Part shown: in pieces, positions 8,262 to 27,333 of the stretch
Layout of the letters: each line of letters starts with the position of its first letter
Numbering within the stretch: the first letter of the stretch is position 1
Virus record (IMG/VR): IMGVR_UViG_3300034158_000018
Span: 1 to 27,643 of that record
Length of the DNA: 27,643 nt
From: a virus
Direction: 5' to 3' (one strand)
Program-made: the position numbers and the translations under genes
Notes under the pieces: model-generated
Seen by the model: the letters and a program-made list of their open reading frames with translations, nothing else
What the model was told of the DNA's origin: nothing
Databases searched by the model: none

Positions 8262-9746
8262 TTACAGTTTAGCCCGATCAATCGCATAGTGGATATTGGA
8301 TTCGAAGCGCGCCCACAGACCCACGTCTCCGTTCTCCAACTCCAGCATGGTAGCGTACCGCCCAACCTTGTCCGACTCACGCCACGTCACGACCTTTACG
8401 CTTTTCACGTCAGGGCCGAGTGCCGCCAGTTGGTTTCGGGAGATAATGTCGCTACCGAGGATCAATCGAACCTTGGCTTCGTACGGTTTCGGTTCAGCAT
8501 TCACTTTCTCGAGGTTGAAAACGGGCTTCACATCGATGTACTTCGTGATTTGCGTCACGAGGGGTTTCAGCTTGCGGTTGCCCTTAGTGTCTTTGTCCTC
8601 ATAGATTAAGTCTGTGATGTCCGTGAGTACAAAGTATTCGTCACCATTCCGTATATTTTTCAATGTCTTACGGAGTGATTGCCACACACTGGCTTTCCGG
8701 AAACCGAGACCGACAGGTGTCTGCTCAACCAAAACCGGCGTCTTGTCGCTGTTGACAGTGTCGAGCCGTTCCTGCCCCTCTAACAAGAAGGTGGTCCCGT
8801 AGGTCCTAACTTCGTTGTAGATCCGTGCAGAGAAGATCGAATCAAGGTGGCCAATCATCAGACGTCCACGCTTAACCGAATCACGCTTGATCGCGCTTTT
8901 ACGCAACGCTTCCATGATCGGGTCCGGCTCAGTCACCAAGCATACACCGAGGAAGTTGTCCGCATACCGCTTGCCCGGCAGGTCGTCTTCCTTATCCTTG
9001 GTGCCGTGCGTTCCCACGTAGTAAACGTGATGGCCCGTATCTTCTTCCACGAAATCTTCTTCCGTGGTGGAGAAGTACCAGCGAGGCGCTTGCAGGATGC
9101 GTGGTACTTCAGACTTCTGATTCCAGTAGCCCGCAGCTTCACGTTCCTCGCGAATGTCGCCGATCTTCTTCTGAGACAGAGCCAGACCACGAGTGGCCAA
9201 CGTGTCCGCACGATCGTTACCTGGGTGACCATTGTGACCTTTGATCCATTCCAGGGTCAGAGTATCGCAATGGGCCACCAGCTTCTCGTAAAGGTTCTTC
9301 ACCTTTTCCCAAGTAGGACGGTACTTGATCGGTTCGCCCGTGGAACCAACCCAGCCGCGCTTAGCCCACTTATCGACCCACTGCGTTGTGCCTTGCACGA
9401 CGAAGCGAGAGTCCGAGAAGATCTTGACGTGCTTGAGCTCAGGATGTTCTTCCATCCACTTGAGTGCTTCGTAAAGCGCCCAGAGCTCAGCTTCGTTGTT
9501 ACTGCCCATCAGGGTGTTGCCGCCGATGAGGTCGTGATAGTTGACAACGGTGACTTTACTGCCAGCCTTGTCGGTGAACTGATAACCGAGTTCAGTCGGA
9601 ACAACCTTTGGATTACCTGTGCCGCGTTTGGGCTCCTCAGGGAGGAAGGTGTACGCATGGACACCCCAACCAGCGTGCTTGGAATGCATCAGGTAGCCAG
9701 CATCGCAATAGACGATGGCACTGATCGCCATTGTTTCAGTAGTCAT
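8262..9746 (-). CDS. Ribonuclease HI with long C-terminal extension
   Basis: 494 aa. Residues 8-190 are an RNase HI domain that cleaves the RNA strand of RNA-DNA hybrids, probably removing primers or transcripts in phage replication. The metal-binding residues are visible: D15 in VYCDAGY, E87 in SNNEAELWALYEAL, D112 in IFSDSRFVV and D181 in HPGNDRADTLA. H171 matches the catalytic-loop histidine of E. coli RNase HI. The remaining 300 residues match nothing I recognise and include a segment LILGSDIISRNQLAALG near residue 434. phiKZ gp155 is also annotated as RNase H-like in a similar location. The ATG at 9746 is used because GGA lies upstream; M6 is an alternative start. Confidence 0.88.
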   Translation of the reverse strand: MTTETMAISAIVYCDAGYLMHSKHAGWGVHAYTFLPEEPKRGTGNPKVVPTELGYQFTDKAGSKVTVVNYHDLIGGNTLMGSNNEAELWALYEALKWMEEHPELKHVKIFSDSRFVVQGTTQWVDKWAKRGWVGSTGEPIKYRPTWEKVKNLYEKLVAHCDTLTLEWIKGHNGHPGNDRADTLATRGLALSQKKIGDIREEREAAGYWNQKSEVPRILQAPRWYFSTTEEDFVEEDTGHHVYYVGTHGTKDKEDDLPGKRYADNFLGVCLVTEPDPIMEALRKSAIKRDSVKRGRLMIGHLDSIFSARIYNEVRTYGTTFLLEGQERLDTVNSDKTPVLVEQTPVGLGFRKASVWQSLRKTLKNIRNGDEYFVLTDITDLIYEDKDTKGNRKLKPLVTQITKYIDVKPVFNLEKVNAEPKPYEAKVRLILGSDIISRNQLAALGPDVKSVKVVTWRESDKVGRYATMLELENGDVGLWARFESNIHYAIDRAKL

Positions 9747-9807: not shown

Positions 9808-10128
9808 TTACTTTCCACACCGGCTAATGGTGGATTGGGTCTTCAGCTCTGCGCGAAGGAAGTCGATGTGTGCGTTGAGTCTGTCCACAACGCCCTGATC
9901 ATCGCCATCGGCCAGGTCATCCAATGTGGGCTTGTCTGGGATGATGTAGGTATCAGTCCGTTTGCAGGTAACAACCTTACGGGACTTGATGACCTTCCCT
10001 TTCTCAGCCGGTGCCGCCTCGAACGTGTTGTAAATCGTGATCGAAGGAGGGGTTGGACGTGGGGTGATGGGTACGCACGATCCCAATAAGAAGGTCGTGA
10101 CTAACAGAAGTTGTTTGGCGTGTTTCAT
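9808..10128 (-). CDS. Lipoprotein, candidate outer-membrane spanin (o-spanin)
   Basis: 106 aa. It opens with a lipoprotein signal: basic MKHAK, a hydrophobic stretch and the lipobox LLGSC, with the acylated cysteine at residue 18. The mature part starts Pro-rich (VPITPRPTPPS) and ends with a charged helical region of about 40 residues (LADGDDQGVVDRLNAHIDFL). AAGG lies eight bases before the ATG. It starts 10 bases after a small membrane protein with a coiled coil, the arrangement of two-component spanins, in which an outer-membrane lipoprotein binds the inner-membrane partner to fuse membranes at lysis. The mature chain has the usual o-spanin size. A virion or exclusion lipoprotein is the alternative. 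Confidence 0.6.
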   Translation of the reverse strand: MKHAKQLLLVTTFLLGSCVPITPRPTPPSITIYNTFEAAPAEKGKVIKSRKVVTCKRTDTYIIPDKPTLDDLADGDDQGVVDRLNAHIDFLRAELKTQSTISRCGK

Positions 10129-10138
10129 TGGATTGACC

Positions 10139-10561
10139 TTAATCTATCGCCTGTAGCTTTCCGATTGCATAGTCTTTAAGAGACTGCTTGCCCTTCTGCT
10201 TCGGAGGTGGCATGGCGGTGGGATGATCGGGTGGTGGAGGATTAGGCGTGGAAGGGGCAGATGTTGCAGGCCGCCCTTTGAGACGGCTTTCTAATGTGCT
10301 GATCAACAGAAGCTGATCAGCATTTGTCTTCTCCAGTACTGCTGCGTCTTCAGTCAGTTTGATGTTTCTGGCGTGAGTGAGGTCAGCCACGACCTTGACA
10401 TAGTAGAACAGAAAAAACATCATCAACAAACAGGCTGCCAGTCCTGTCGCCGCCTTGTTTGACAGCAGCAACTCTTTAACGCCTTTATCCTTTAACACGA
10501 TCTCCCTCAAGAAAGGAAAGAGGGATTTCAGAACAAGCAGTATCGTGTAGAGAAGGGACAC
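10139..10561 (-). CDS. Small membrane protein, candidate inner-membrane spanin (i-spanin)
   Basis: 140 aa from a GTG at 10561 with AGGAG seven bases upstream; an ATG two bases earlier is out of frame and soon hits a stop. Residues 1-25 are hydrophobic and amphipathic. Residues about 38-60 (TGLAACLLMMFFLFYYVKVV) are a clear membrane helix. Residues 61-95 form a charged, leucine-patterned helix that could be a coiled coil (ARNIKLTEDAAVLEKTNADQ). A Pro-rich linker (about 97-120) and a basic end follow. A single membrane helix with a periplasmic coiled coil next to a lipoprotein gene fits an i-spanin. If both N-terminal segments cross the membrane, a holin-like role is possible. Confidence 0.58.
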   Translation of the reverse strand: MSLLYTILLVLKSLFPFLREIVLKDKGVKELLLSNKAATGLAACLLMMFFLFYYVKVVADLTHARNIKLTEDAAVLEKTNADQLLLISTLESRLKGRPATSAPSTPNPPPPDHPTAMPPPKQKGKQSLKDYAIGKLQAID

Positions 10562-10671: not shown

Positions 10672-11988
10672 GTGAAGAGTTTTAAAGGGTTCGCCCACAT
10701 CGGCAGTTTGGCCGACAACAGAGATCACCAAGACGCACCGGTGGGTGAGCTGTCAGCACTCTCCCACACGTTTACGCGTGATCAAACCAAGAACACCAGC
10801 GGCGCTAACCCAGGTTACATGCTGCGTGGTTTCTCCTATTACATCGACGACGTCAAGAATCAGATCCCTGATACCGACGCACTGAAGATGTTGGCTGTCA
10901 TTGACTGGGTGTACGGTAAAGCACGCCTGGGTACATTGACCTCCGACGTCCTGTCTGTGAAGAGCGCCTGGATCACTGATCAAGCGGCAACCTTCGATCT
11001 GAAAGAAACCGGTCAAATGGTTCAGTTCGATAACAACAAGTGGGCACCGTCCTACCTGGTGTTTGCGCCGAAGGATGAGTTGACCACTCGCTGGAAGATT
11101 TGGTTCGCTGAAGCAGCCTTCTTCAACCAGTTCGACGAATACCTGTTCAACCACGTCAAGCCTCTGGCTAACCTGGATGACTTCTTCCTGGACTACGTGA
11201 ACCTCAAGCCTCTGCTTGCTGCACGTACGCTCAGCGATTCGATCGACCAGGTGGATACGCTGCGCGGCAAGGATCCTGAAACCCGTCTGCGTGTCGACCC
11301 GTTTGATTGGATTGACCCTATCGACCGTGACAAGCGCATCAGCGTGGATTGGATGTCGCTGCTGTGGGGTGAGGCGGGTAACAACCTCGACGCTGTCAAA
11401 GAGTCGTTGGTGAAATGGATCCTGGCTAACAGTACCCACACTCGTGAAGAGTGGGCTGTGATCTTCCCGGACATCTTCACGTCCACCGAACTGATCTTCG
11501 TCCCTATCTGGGATGAGTGGGCAGTACCGGAGCGTCCTCGTGAATCCGGCGTCTATCGTGGTGCTGGCAACATGCTGGCTGCGATCGAGAAGGCCAAGTT
11601 GGTTTGCAAAGGTGTCAAGTACACTGCTGCACACATCGCTGCTGTAGCGAACGACTGCCCGACTCAGTTCAAGAGCGTTCGTTGCGTGGTAGTCGGCGGT
11701 CCTGAGAATCGGGATGGCAAGAACCAACTGGTCCTGCAACATCCGGACTGGATCAACGTTCCGACCACTCACACCGACTTCATGCGGATGAGTGAATTGA
11801 CCAAGGGCGCTTACATGCTCGTCATGGAGATGCTCCAGTACGCAGAAGAGATGACGGCTACCACAGCGCCACCTACCGGATTCAACCGGACTGTGCGTGA
11901 TGGCGTGATGTACATCTCCAAGACCTATCAGAAGTTCCTGTATCTGATCGTGGTCAAAGCCAGCTTCGATGAGATCGTTCCGGGGTAA
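10672..11988 (+). CDS. Probable virion/tail structural protein
   Basis: 438 aa, start GTG at 10672 with GAGGTG five to six bases upstream. The protein begins MKSFKGFAHIGSLADNRDHQ, is soluble, rich in Trp, Asp and aromatic residues, and lacks a signal peptide or membrane helix. I do not recognise a domain. It heads a two-gene rightward unit with the coiled-coil protein downstream, 3 bases away. The size, composition and position between RNase H and the spike genes suggest a tail or baseplate component, as in the gp156-gp163 region of phiKZ, but this is context only. Confidence 0.65.
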   Translation: MKSFKGFAHIGSLADNRDHQDAPVGELSALSHTFTRDQTKNTSGANPGYMLRGFSYYIDDVKNQIPDTDALKMLAVIDWVYGKARLGTLTSDVLSVKSAWITDQAATFDLKETGQMVQFDNNKWAPSYLVFAPKDELTTRWKIWFAEAAFFNQFDEYLFNHVKPLANLDDFFLDYVNLKPLLAARTLSDSIDQVDTLRGKDPETRLRVDPFDWIDPIDRDKRISVDWMSLLWGEAGNNLDAVKESLVKWILANSTHTREEWAVIFPDIFTSTELIFVPIWDEWAVPERPRESGVYRGAGNMLAAIEKAKLVCKGVKYTAAHIAAVANDCPTQFKSVRCVVVGGPENRDGKNQLVLQHPDWINVPTTHTDFMRMSELTKGAYMLVMEMLQYAEEMTATTAPPTGFNRTVRDGVMYISKTYQKFLYLIVVKASFDEIVPG

Positions 11989-21603: not shown

Positions 21604-21628
21604 ACATGCGATCCTTGGAGTGACGAGA

Positions 21629-24580
21629 ATGTCCCTGACGGAAAAGATGAATGAACTTCTGGTTGAGATGGAGGCAGTCAATGCCGAGATCATTCAGAAG
21701 ACTGGGGGTCCGGCGGGTAGCGATACTATCGTTGACCACGCCCCCAATGCTGACAAGCTTGATGGGATGACGGCAGGCCGTGTCTCGGATCTACTCCGGG
21801 AGCGCATTCGAGCCCACATCGAGACACTGGGTCAGAACGCTCACAACCTTCTACCTAGTGACCTCGGTACGTACAGTTCTATCGAGTTCAACACCAAGAT
21901 CGACAGCTACCTGGACATCAAAGGCAACGGCCCTCTGTCGTTCTACGGTGACCGTGAGTATCTGCCACCTACGGTGACCGGTTCGTTTGAATCGGGTGTG
22001 ACCTGGGCGCCGTGGAGTTACGTCGGTATGTTCCTTGAGGACAACGGCACACTCATGATGCTCCGTACCGGAACCGATGGCGTGAAGGCAGGTGTGTATT
22101 ACTCGTACCTGCGTAACGCCCTCAACACGTCGTTGATGTCTGACATCGTGATGACCAACGCCCGTTACAACCCAGCTTACTTCCCATCGGACTCGTACGC
22201 GCGTTCGGTACTGTGGGGTAGTCAGGATCTGATCATTGGTATCCTGGCACACAAAGTCACGGGTGTGATCACGGGTTACTTCGTTTCCCTGACGAACAAC
22301 ACCTACGACCAATCGAAACACACCGGCATCGTGATCCCCGCCAGCAGTGGCATCATGAACTGCTACGTCTCCGGTGACTCGGCCTTGCGTGGACAGCCGA
22401 TCGGGTTCTTGAAAGGCGGGACAGTTTATCTGCTCGTCAATAAAGACAACATCGACTTCGAAGCGGCTGGCTGGAAGGTCTACTCGATCCCGAAACAAAA
22501 CCTGATCGACAGCAACTATGTCGCTCCTACACCGATCACTGGTTGGACCATCAACCGCGGTGTGGAAGGTGTGGTTTCGCGTACCGACCTTGATTACGCA
22601 GACACCAAGAACAACCTGATCATCCTGGGTAGTCCTAGGATGTACGCGTCGGAGACCCATCGGTGCAACCCTGCCCACTACGCCAAGACCATGCCGGACG
22701 GTCGGATGGTGATGGACAGCATGCAATACATGGGTGTCTGGGACAACGCTAACCTGGCTCAGCCGATTCAGTGGCTGATGACCACTGTATTCAACTTCGA
22801 CCCGGTGAGTAAGGTCGTTGACATGTCGCCGTACTTTAACGACAAGCCGACGATGACGTTCAACGGTGATGGCACGGTGATGGATTGGGGCAACGGTAAG
22901 GGTAACCGCTACATCCGAAATACCCAAAGCCACATCAACCACATGAACGGCCAAGCGACATCACGTCTATTCGTTACTGAAAACAACGTGGCGTTTGTGT
23001 ACCTGACCAGTGTGTTGTACACCAGTCGCTCGCTCCACCGCTTCACGTACGCCGCCGATGCGACGATCGATGACATCCTGCTGGGAACGTCTAAATATCA
23101 AGCCTACGTGGCAGACGCTTTCGAAGGTCGGTATGCCAGCCCTGTGTCGTTCCTGATGGACTCGATTACAAACTTTGGCGATCTGGTCCTGACTGGTCAA
23201 AACACCGGTTGGAACAAGAACAACAAAGTAGCGCGTATGTTCTGGCGTGCTGGTACTGACAGTACGTTCACGTACCAGTATGGTTCATTGCAGACCTACA
23301 ACTACCTCGGAAACCCACCAACTCCAGAGCGGGCGTGGCTGCTTGACTATCCGGGTAACACCGAACCGGATATGTACAGCACTGTCAACGAAACGGATGC
23401 CAGTGGTTGGCGTGTCCATAAGGGACGTTTTGATAACTACGTCATGGCAGGCCGACGTAGTGGGGCTGCGAACATCACAGCGGCAATGGTAGGTACCGGA
23501 ACTCTCAGTATCACCCCAGCGGCTTTCGATAGCCTTGCAGCACCGTTGATGGCAGACCTTGCAGCACAGGTGGGGCCGCCCTATGGCACACCAGCCACAG
23601 TAACTCAATTGTGGTACGAGGTAATCTTACCTCAGCGCTACAGTGACTTACCTGCATTCGTTTACGGACATTACGTGGGCGCTGACCGAGTCACGTACTT
23701 CTTCGTGTATTCGCTTAACGTCAACAACCGTCAAACCGTTACTGCTGCGTCATTGGCCACTGCCACTCGAATGATCGTCCAGGCGCAACATGGGCGTGGT
23801 ACCGCTGTCGGATGTAGCTTTTCAGTATTCACTGCGGGTCAGGTGGCAATCCGTCGTGTCGACTCTGGTTTCCTGGTAGGGTTGGTCACCACTGGACGTT
23901 ATTCATTCATCGGTAACAGTGTGGCCACCTGCGCACTGCTGTCGTGGAAGCCTGGTGTCGGCTGGGCGATGGCGATGCCTATCGACTATGACCAACAACA
24001 GATCTCGAACAGTAACTGGGTCAACATGTCGCACGGTCTGTATCTGACGTTCACGACTGAGAACCACCGGGGTAACGTCGACTGTGGTACAAAGCTGCTG
24101 GGCGTGTTGGTCAGTAATGGTGCTGCGCCAAACCTGAACAACCTCGAAGAGTACCGTGCTCGGTTCCTTGATCGAAACTACGCGCGGATCTTCTTGTCTC
24201 AACAAACCGTTACGGCGTGGACTGTCTACTTCGCTGACCCGACACCTGTGATGATTGAGGGACTCTACTACGAGTTGGGTGTTTACGCCCATTACCTCAA
24301 CGCGGGGACGGATGCGAACAAAACGTTCTACTGCTGGGCGGTACGTGAGGCAGGTGATACTGTCCGGTACCACATCACCACTAACCCTGCGATCCCAACC
24401 GGATTCCTGGGTCAGCTGTATCTCGGCTTCTTCACTACCAACTCGGCAGGTCTTGCGATCGTAGCGGTTGAGAAACGTGTTGCTGTCGGTGGTGTGTTGA
24501 TCTCGACTACCTCTCGTGGTAATTCCATACCGGTAACGTCGGGCGTTCCAAACACCCCAGGTCGCCTCAACTGGAGATAG
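21629..24580 (+). CDS. Long tail fibre or tail-spike-like protein
   Basis: 983 aa from the ATG at 21629, eight bases after GGAG; the in-frame GTG at 21620 overlaps that site. Residues 1-85 form a helical adaptor module (DHAPNADKLDGMTAGRVSDL then RAHIETLGQNAHNLL) that recurs at the start of the next two genes. The remaining 900 residues are beta-rich, with many W, Y, N, G and T residues and a propeller-like or beta-sandwich appearance. No catalytic motif is recognised. The length and composition fit a receptor-binding fibre or spike whose N-terminus docks on the tail. The C-terminal part (from about 620) is the likely host-contact end. Confidence 0.7.
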   Translation: MSLTEKMNELLVEMEAVNAEIIQKTGGPAGSDTIVDHAPNADKLDGMTAGRVSDLLRERIRAHIETLGQNAHNLLPSDLGTYSSIEFNTKIDSYLDIKGNGPLSFYGDREYLPPTVTGSFESGVTWAPWSYVGMFLEDNGTLMMLRTGTDGVKAGVYYSYLRNALNTSLMSDIVMTNARYNPAYFPSDSYARSVLWGSQDLIIGILAHKVTGVITGYFVSLTNNTYDQSKHTGIVIPASSGIMNCYVSGDSALRGQPIGFLKGGTVYLLVNKDNIDFEAAGWKVYSIPKQNLIDSNYVAPTPITGWTINRGVEGVVSRTDLDYADTKNNLIILGSPRMYASETHRCNPAHYAKTMPDGRMVMDSMQYMGVWDNANLAQPIQWLMTTVFNFDPVSKVVDMSPYFNDKPTMTFNGDGTVMDWGNGKGNRYIRNTQSHINHMNGQATSRLFVTENNVAFVYLTSVLYTSRSLHRFTYAADATIDDILLGTSKYQAYVADAFEGRYASPVSFLMDSITNFGDLVLTGQNTGWNKNNKVARMFWRAGTDSTFTYQYGSLQTYNYLGNPPTPERAWLLDYPGNTEPDMYSTVNETDASGWRVHKGRFDNYVMAGRRSGAANITAAMVGTGTLSITPAAFDSLAAPLMADLAAQVGPPYGTPATVTQLWYEVILPQRYSDLPAFVYGHYVGADRVTYFFVYSLNVNNRQTVTAASLATATRMIVQAQHGRGTAVGCSFSVFTAGQVAIRRVDSGFLVGLVTTGRYSFIGNSVATCALLSWKPGVGWAMAMPIDYDQQQISNSNWVNMSHGLYLTFTTENHRGNVDCGTKLLGVLVSNGAAPNLNNLEEYRARFLDRNYARIFLSQQTVTAWTVYFADPTPVMIEGLYYELGVYAHYLNAGTDANKTFYCWAVREAGDTVRYHITTNPAIPTGFLGQLYLGFFTTNSAGLAIVAVEKRVAVGGVLISTTSRGNSIPVTSGVPNTPGRLNWR

Positions 24581-25272: not shown

Positions 25273-26007
25273 ATGGCAGAACCAACTGATGAAATCCTGC
25301 TGCTGAATTATTACTTCTCTCAGTATCAGGCCAACATCGTCCGGTTGTTGAAACGTCCTAAGCGTGCACGCATCATCGCAGGCAATACAGACACTCTCAA
25401 TAACCAGACGGTGGCACAACTGCTTGCGGGGGCAAGGGCTGACCTTGCTGCCCACGCAGCGTTGCAAAACAACCCACACCAAGAAACCATTCGGACCATC
25501 GGTTCGTTTGAAGAGTCCTACGTCCGTGGTGAGGCGGTGAAGAAGATCCCGAGTGGTATTCTTCCCATCTCCACCTATGGTGTCGGGGATGAGCTTGGCG
25601 ATGCCGAGGTCTTGGCTGCGTGGGATGTTGCTAACTGGATCTTGACATGCACTCGGCCGATGAACGTCATCATCTCCGGTACTCCGTTCTTGATTCCCAG
25701 CACGCGCATCGACTTACGTACCATCGATGCGGCCCCAGGTAACAAAACCTTTCACGTCTTCGTCTACCTGAAGTTCGGTGTGGTGTCGTATCGAGTCTCA
25801 TCTGAGTCGCCTCCTGAAGGCAACTCGATCATGTACATCGGCACCGTGACTACCGGCACCGTCGGTATCGTGTCGAAGACATTCAAATCTGTTGTGCGGA
25901 TTGACACCTTCCGTCTGTCGTCGACGCCTATTGGCTCTGCGATCCCGGTACAAGGTGGCACGTACGACGCAGCGGTTGCGTTCCCAACTACCTGGAACCC
26001 AGCCTAA
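25273..26007 (+). CDS. Short tail-fibre paralog, family B3
   Basis: 244 aa, starting MAEPTDEILLLNYYFSQYQA. Residues about 15-80 carry the same adaptor module as the two preceding genes: NIVRLLKRPKRAR, TDTLNNQTVAQLLAGARADL, then AHAALQNNPHQETIRTIG. The rest is a beta-rich domain that ends RLSSTPIGSAIPVQGGTYDA, resembling the end of the preceding protein (RRGYAIPATFGTPT). The match therefore extends through both ends, and the two genes likely arose by tandem duplication. Role: virion fibre or collar component. No catalytic motif. Confidence 0.68.
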   Translation: MAEPTDEILLLNYYFSQYQANIVRLLKRPKRARIIAGNTDTLNNQTVAQLLAGARADLAAHAALQNNPHQETIRTIGSFEESYVRGEAVKKIPSGILPISTYGVGDELGDAEVLAAWDVANWILTCTRPMNVIISGTPFLIPSTRIDLRTIDAAPGNKTFHVFVYLKFGVVSYRVSSESPPEGNSIMYIGTVTTGTVGIVSKTFKSVVRIDTFRLSSTPIGSAIPVQGGTYDAAVAFPTTWNPA

Positions 26008-26658: not shown

Positions 26659-27333
26659 ATGGCTACCACGCCGAGTAAGACCCTGAGTGAAACTCAAACC
26701 TGGCTCAAGCAGCTGGGTTACAATCCAGGTATCGTTGACGGTATCTGGGGTAAAGACTCTGAGAAGGCTTACCAAGCTCTCATTGCGAACAACATCGTCA
26801 ATGGCGATGTGGTCATGATCCCGTGGGGTGTGAAATTCACCGAACAGGAAATGGCCAAACTGCGTCAGGTTGTCCGCAACCTCGGTTTACCACTGCATAT
26901 GGTCCAGGACTTCATGGGCTGCATGGCATGGGAGACTGGCGAGAAGTTCAGCCCGTCGACCAAGAACCCTGGTTCCAGCGCTACTGGCCTGATCCAGTTC
27001 ATGGAGGCCACCGCGAAGTCGATGGGCACCACGACTGCCGACATGGCCAAGATGACTGTGGTCGAGCAACTGGGCTACGTCGAGAAACACTTCCTGCCTT
27101 ACCGCAAGAAGATCCAGAACCTCGGCGACGTTTACATGACCATCCTGAAACCGGTAGCCGTTGGCCAGCCGGACAGCTACGTCATGTGGTCCAAGGCTGA
27201 CAGCCAGTTCGTTCCGAACAAAGGTATCGACTTCAATGACGACGGCGTCATCACTCGTCTGGAAGCCGTGCACAAAGTGCGCAACAAGCTGGTGAAAGGT
27301 TTCCTGCCTGGCAACGTCCGCAAGGCTGCGTAA
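26659..27333 (+). CDS. Endolysin: peptidoglycan-binding plus lytic transglycosylase (SLT) domain, with EF-hand-like loop
   Basis: 224 aa. Residues 8-45 are a PG_binding_1-type repeat (LSETQTWLKQLGYNPGIVDG then IWGKDSEKAYQAL). Residues about 80-180 resemble the SLT lysozyme-like domain of phiKZ gp144. E92 in MAWETGEKFSPSTKNPGSSA is the likely catalytic glutamate, and the downstream SATGLIQFMEATAKS is the typical GL-Q segment. The enzyme cleaves the glycan strand of peptidoglycan. Residues 191-202 (DFNDDGVITRLE) match a canonical EF-hand calcium loop. GAGGA lies nine bases before the ATG, inside the upstream gene. No signal peptide is seen, so release would need a holin. As the last gene of a tail operon it might instead be virion-associated. 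Confidence 0.85.
   Translation: MATTPSKTLSETQTWLKQLGYNPGIVDGIWGKDSEKAYQALIANNIVNGDVVMIPWGVKFTEQEMAKLRQVVRNLGLPLHMVQDFMGCMAWETGEKFSPSTKNPGSSATGLIQFMEATAKSMGTTTADMAKMTVVEQLGYVEKHFLPYRKKIQNLGDVYMTILKPVAVGQPDSYVMWSKADSQFVPNKGIDFNDDGVITRLEAVHKVRNKLVKGFLPGNVRKAA

Follow-up and report, generated by a model that had tools for sequence, protein, structure and literature searches.

A phage is usually assumed to have a single spanin system. The window analysed here, the whole 27.6-kb stretch (27,643 nt) of IMG/VR virus record IMGVR_UViG_3300034158_000018, carries two small adjacent genes beside an RNase H gene, which the initial annotation proposed to be separate i-spanin and o-spanin genes remote from the lysin. 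Do they encode a spanin and, if so, is it the lysis spanin of this phage? The gene family also suggests possible functions for two conserved genes, so far 'hypothetical', beside an essential nucleus-maturation gene.

A membrane protein and a lipoprotein are encoded beside RNase H

Both open reading frames lie on the minus strand exactly where they had been placed, with a single-TM protein followed by a lipobox protein, and the RNase H setting was likewise borne out by the match of the neighbouring product to phrog_3265 (Table 1). In our reading of the frames the TM gene and the lipoprotein gene are separated by 10 nt. The sequence AGGAG (10573-10569) stands 7 nt ahead of the GTG of the TM gene, and AAGG ahead of the ATG of the lipoprotein gene overlaps the stop codon of the TM gene. 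From this separated layout, translational coupling of the two genes is likely. Compared with three close relatives, dN/dS is 0.14-0.18 for the TM gene and 0.14-0.22 for the lipoprotein gene, indicating that both are real genes under purifying selection. Scanning shuffled genomes for TM plus lipoprotein pairs yielded 0 pairs. Together with the occurrence of both genes in 73 of 77 loci (see below), these sequence data confirm that the gene pair is not a product of chance.

Table 1 Features of the window discussed in the text (residue numbers refer to the respective protein).
Feature	Position	Strand	Remarks
RNase H-like protein, phiKZ gp155 homologue	8262..9746	minus	phrog_3265, E=3.6e-92; downstream, same gene row
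o-spanin-like lipoprotein gene	10128-9808	minus	ATG start, 106 aa; homologue, by position and family, of phiKZ gp156 / PhiPA3 gp179 / 201phi2-1 gp241
C-terminal helix of lipoprotein, residues 77-105	9814..9900	minus	AF2; high pLDDT over residues 61-100
Second invariant Cys (Cys55) of lipoprotein	9964..9966	minus	candidate disulfide with C-terminal Cys104
Lipobox LGSC, lipid-attachment Cys18	10075..10086	minus	V at +2, not Asp
i-spanin-like single-TM protein gene	10561-10139	minus	GTG start, 140 aa; homologue of phiKZ gp156.1 / PhiPA3 gp180 / 201phi2-1 gp242 (phrog_14813)
Short C-terminal helix of TM protein, residues 128-139	10145..10180	minus	AF2; candidate lipoprotein contact
Proline-rich linker, residues 97-127	10181..10273	minus	sequence; AF2 coil
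Periplasmic coiled coil, residues 59-96	10274..10387	minus	a/d heptad 59,62,66,69,73,76,80,83,87,90,94; AF2 helix
Transmembrane segment, residues 40-58	10388..10444	minus	hydropathy, AF2 helix 36-96, positive-inside rule
Conserved N-terminal block, residues 9-36	10454..10537	minus	..L[WF]PF[LI][KR]E..[LF].D[RK]T..E....N[KR]; predicted cytoplasmic
Virion structural protein, phiKZ gp157 homologue	10672..11988	plus	phrog_3293, E=2.7e-110; divergent upstream neighbour, syntenic in related loci
'Lysin', PG_binding_1 and Phage_lysozyme2 protein	26659..27333	plus	both below Pfam cut-offs; phrog_4928/196

TM prediction finds one strong membrane-spanning segment in the TM protein, and residues 1-19 are borderline hydrophobic. 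The N-terminal flank of the segment is more positive than the C-terminal flank in 34 of 40 non-redundant homologues, so an N-in/C-out topology is predicted, with the block of residues 9-36 in the cytoplasm. The AF2 model (pLDDT 82.6) consists of helices 2-24 and 26-34, a long helix 36-96, a coil and a final helix 128-139; pLDDT reaches 94-98 across residues 51-90. A periplasmic coiled coil had been claimed for this protein. The claim holds at the family level, where 0 of 20000 shuffles matched the heptad pattern of 40 sequences, and not for the window protein alone (7326/20000, not significant). Across the 40 homologues, per-column conservation within the folded part is highest in residues 9-36 and the periplasmic part is more variable. 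An ending of the form [KR]-hydrophobic-polar-x-hydrophobic recurs across loci with both genes and is absent in L173, L175 and L211, all without the lipoprotein (small numbers). When the C-terminal tails were compared by hydrophobic moment, the groups were not cleanly separated.

The lipoprotein starts with MKHAKQLLLVTTFLLGSC, a lipobox, and the corresponding claim proved sound: the motif reads LLGSC, and among 46 homologues the lipid Cys18 and also Cys55 are invariant, with one nearly invariant Pro. In the working alignment all 70 homologues contain at least three Cys, and 0/70 have Asp at +2 of the lipid Cys. The protein is thus predicted to carry an outer-membrane lipoprotein signal. AF2 models it as a coil followed by the helix 77-105 (pLDDT 78). 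It proved too divergent for tblastn in phages and for a search of viral contigs, and homologues were reached only via synteny.

The pair recurs at the syntenic position in phiKZ-like phages

The TM protein matches phrog_14813, the phiKZ gp156.1 family, with E=7.7e-9. Pairs occupy the syntenic slot in phiKZ (gp156.1/gp156), PhiPA3 (gp180/gp179) and 201phi2-1 (gp242/gp241) as well as in Noxifer, RVTF4, DT01, LucasX and FLC9. We collected 80 IMG/VR loci by alignment of gp157 homologues; RNase H is present in 77 of them, which form the counting set. HMM searches detected both genes in 73/77 loci, the TM protein alone in four (L173, L175, L204, L211) and the lipoprotein alone in none. The two-gene loci cover 36 sequence clusters, and adjacency is kept despite very divergent sequences; the intergenic spacing, measured in 61 loci, ranges from -17 to +25 nt. 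Conservation of the pair, suggested initially as a check, is asymmetric, and the refuting condition named in the initial annotation, conservation of a single gene of the two, applies in part: the lipoprotein never occurs alone in the counting set, and the TM protein does so in the four loci, in most enterobacterial relatives, in an EL-like phage and in an Aeromonas phage. In phage PA7 (L013:3110-3666) the annotated ORFs of both genes are 5'-truncated, masking the TM segment and the lipobox; an intact lipoprotein ORF identical to that of phiKZ is present.

A single TM protein occupies the slot, and a lipobox ORF is missing, in Ea35-70, PhiEaH1, PCH45, Moabite, FBKp24 and Goslar; the EL-like Pseudomonas phage, the Aeromonas phage and Klebsiella phage Eowyn also have a TM protein without the lipoprotein. 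We considered whether the enterobacterial loci with one gene encode a unimolecular spanin and rejected this, as no lipobox occurs in any same-strand frame there. The enterobacterial single proteins agree with the TM protein in position and in an [LI]PYLYxFI[KR]E-like motif. Orthology was not accepted, since their HMM scores are weak and do not exceed those of unrelated TM/coiled-coil proteins. Ea35-70 has an overlapped pair elsewhere in its genome.

Vibrio phage pVa-21 and Salmonella phage SPN3US have both a TM protein and a lipoprotein in the slot. In SPN3US this pair, gp062/gp061, is the sole spanin-like pair found by the pair scan, which is weak evidence. A whole-genome lipobox scan found no second pair in Goslar or SPN3US; this result is weak and sensitive to the lipobox rule, because the strict form (small/hydrophobic residue at one position) missed phiKZ gp141.1 and was relaxed afterwards. 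The annotated start of SPN3US gp062 (L215:3467-3937) looks too late: with translation from a GTG further upstream, the protein gains an LPFLQ motif that matches the conserved block at the N-terminus.

A second, unrelated spanin-type pair is present in the same genomes

Nine genomes that carry the RNase H-locus pair were scanned in full (phiKZ, 201phi2-1, PhiPA3, RVTF4, Noxifer, DT01, FLC9, LucasX and the window's 264-kb relative), and every one of them also encodes a separate spanin-type pair. In phiKZ this is gp141, annotated as 'Rz-like spanin' (RefSeq, phrog_7584), which is overlapped by a further ORF and lies a short way upstream of the endolysin gp144; the lipoprotein gp141.1 overlaps gp141 by 146 nt. 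We found gp141-type homologues in 201phi2-1, PhiPA3, RVTF4, Noxifer and DT01, and in FLC9 by architecture and sequence likeness. The 264-kb relative has its RNase H locus at 51-52 kb; at 173237-172465 on the minus strand (L085:1465-2237) it also has genes for a TM protein of 155 aa and a lipoprotein of 102 aa, whose sequences align with phiKZ gp141/gp141.1. We rejected homology between the RNase H-locus pair and the gp141-type pair, as the hhalign alignment covers the TM segment and signal peptide only. By sequence, the RNase H-locus pair is a second pair, non-homologous to the gp141-type.

In the 264-kb relative the gp141-type pair lies ~104 kb from the PG_binding_1 endolysin candidate (68 kb), beside nucleotide-metabolism genes; the two adjoin in phiKZ. 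LucasX has an embedded Rz/Rz1-like pair of a 241-aa TM protein and a 71-aa lipoprotein at 172274-172489 (plus strand) where others have the gp141-type pair. Phages that share the RNase H-locus pair therefore do not all have the same kind of lysis spanin. In 201phi2-1 an unannotated lipoprotein ORF at 158266-158649 (plus strand; L068:3267-3650) overlaps gp226 by 176 nt and is the o-component of the gp141-type pair. The record of gp226 notes virion detection by mass spectrometry; such a note is absent from the records of 201phi2-1 gp241/242 and phiKZ gp156/156.1.

The initial remark that spanins are poorly described in phiKZ-like phages holds only in part. The gp141 protein is already annotated, and Kongari 2018 (PMC6139136) lists phiKZ, EL, 201phi2-1, OBP and Ea35-70 as having 'overlapped' two-component spanins, which therefore cannot be the separated RNase H-locus pair. 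As for gp156/156.1, the literature searched does not describe them as a spanin, and reports only co-transcription with gp155. Our search also returned no paper tying spanins to the RNase H locus and no experiment on a lysis role of the pair. The probable envelope-bridging system at this locus looks undescribed.

Comparison with known spanins

The TM protein has the predicted features of an i-component, namely a single TM segment, N-in/C-out topology and a periplasmic domain, and the gene for its partner is adjacent. The combined periplasmic length of ~82 + 89 residues (about 170 aa) falls inside the 62-300 aa reported for two-component spanins in Kongari 2018 (PMC6139136). No homology to named spanin families (PHROG Rz-like, phiKZ gp141 family) was recognisable, and the PHROG matches are families of unknown function. 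Foldseek against viral models returned nothing at E <= 0.001, a search that is uninformative for single helices.

The closest likeness is to phiKZ gp156.1/gp156 (phrog_14813 / phrog_15897, hypothetical), which share slot and architecture. The gp141/gp141.1 pair of phiKZ is also a TM protein plus a lipoprotein; however, its genes overlap and lie near the endolysin, they are other genes of the same genomes, the TM segment is near the extreme N-terminus and there is no WPFLKE block. T4-type PseT.3/PseT.2 are likewise separate adjacent genes, with conserved Cys and Pro in the o-spanin. Kongari 2018 (PMC6139136) describes these residues for T4- and Jersey-type o-spanins and a beta-alpha-beta core for that of T4, whereas the window lipoprotein is modelled by AF2 as one helix after a coil, and we found no sequence relation. 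With lambda Rz/Rz1 the pair shares a coiled coil on the i-side and a proline-rich stretch in the complex, but the lambda genes are embedded and the proline-rich stretch of the window is in the i-protein, not the o-protein.

The proposed i-/o-spanin layout is backed by topology, lipobox, family-level coiled coil, proline-rich linker, conserved Cys, adjacency, length and, with its asymmetry, co-conservation. The initial reading as a whole is only partly supported, given the spanin-type pair elsewhere in 9/9 genomes. As all predicted spanin features save the asymmetric co-conservation were found, it is well supported by architecture, as read from sequence, that the pair works like a spanin. This support does not extend to its being the phage's lysis spanin.

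Proposed roles: an accessory envelope bridge or a tether

The inner-membrane protein and the outer-membrane lipoprotein probably join across the bacterial envelope. The former would send its coiled coil and a flexible proline-rich arm through the periplasm, where its C-terminal helix may dock on the C-terminal domain of the lipoprotein. After endolysin action the pair would help to fuse or disrupt the membranes, freeing the very large virions, in addition to the gp141-type pair, to which it is unrelated in sequence. Through its conserved, predicted cytoplasmic N-terminus the TM protein may also take a further input from the cytoplasm, for timing or localisation, which ordinary i-spanins do without. 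This reading, an accessory, second spanin-type bridge of phiKZ-like phages, is the one we prefer, with evenly divided confidence. It gains from SPN3US, where the slot pair is the only one found, and from the absent virion notes. Counted against it are the cytoplasmic location of the best conserved region, the TM protein occurring without its partner in the four loci and most enterobacterial relatives, the lack of a match to a named spanin family, and the phiKZ partner gp155. According to the available text of PMC12571901 (Nature 2025), gp155 shares a transcript with 154, 156 and 156.1, its expression is ChmA-dependent and seen by 20 min p.i., and it is essential for nucleus maturation, not lysis, with its nuclease activity not needed. 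On the function of 156/156.1 that text, from the sole paper found naming gp156, says nothing.

This co-transcription also favours the main rival, which we consider possible if somewhat unlikely: a non-lytic tether that links inner and outer membrane at the nucleus/replication stage, for instance to stabilise the envelope, exclude superinfection or anchor a phage structure to the membrane, while the gp141-type pair does lysis. As a spanin-type pair is already present in 9/9 genomes, a lysis role is unnecessary to explain outer-membrane rupture, and the conserved N-terminus and the retention of the TM protein where the lipoprotein is lost point the same way. However, TM segment, coiled coil, proline-rich arm, outer-membrane lipoprotein and conserved Cys are what a spanin needs, SPN3US appears to have only the RNase H locus for this role, and expression before lysis is compatible with a spanin. 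A related proposal, rather doubtful in our view, is a bridge from the nucleus-maturation operon of nucleus-forming phages, present besides the lysis spanins, whose N-terminal WPFLKE...N block reads a cytoplasmic phage component and which acts before or independently of lysis. The one-gene loci (L173, L175, L204, L211, Ea35-70, PhiEaH1, PCH45, Moabite, FBKp24, Goslar and the EL-like, Aeromonas and Eowyn phages) and the cytoplasmic conserved block would also suit an inner-membrane factor that works with a partner in the cytoplasm, the lipoprotein being an independent neighbour with a separate function and no complex being formed. We consider this quite unlikely, given that the lipoprotein is never found alone in the 77 loci, that adjacency survives strong divergence and that the C-terminal motif is missing from three of the loci without the lipoprotein, L173, L175 and L211 (small numbers). 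Least probable by far is what the initial annotation implied, that this is the sole classical spanin pair, moved away from the endolysin. Layout and signals would fit, and T4-type spanins are also separate genes in Kongari 2018 (PMC6139136), but the gp141-type pair of the 264-kb relative largely refutes it.

Two unrelated two-component envelope pairs in 9/9 phiKZ-like genomes tested raise the question whether giant virions are freed by two spanin systems or whether one pair serves another purpose in the course of infection. Antisense knockdown has been published for the model phage phiKZ, which makes it possible to test each pair and the two jointly.

Other genes of the window

A lysin 16 kb away had been part of the original description. 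A candidate protein does lie ~16 kb from the gene pair; its lysozyme and peptidoglycan-binding Pfam matches are below cut-off, and it also matches a baseplate-hub family strongly. With this combination, both a lysis endolysin and a virion-associated enzyme are possible. The C-terminal regions of the window ORFs at 21620-24580 and 25273-26007 belong to a common family (phrog_3573/phrog_26864), which points to duplication of a tail-protein domain.
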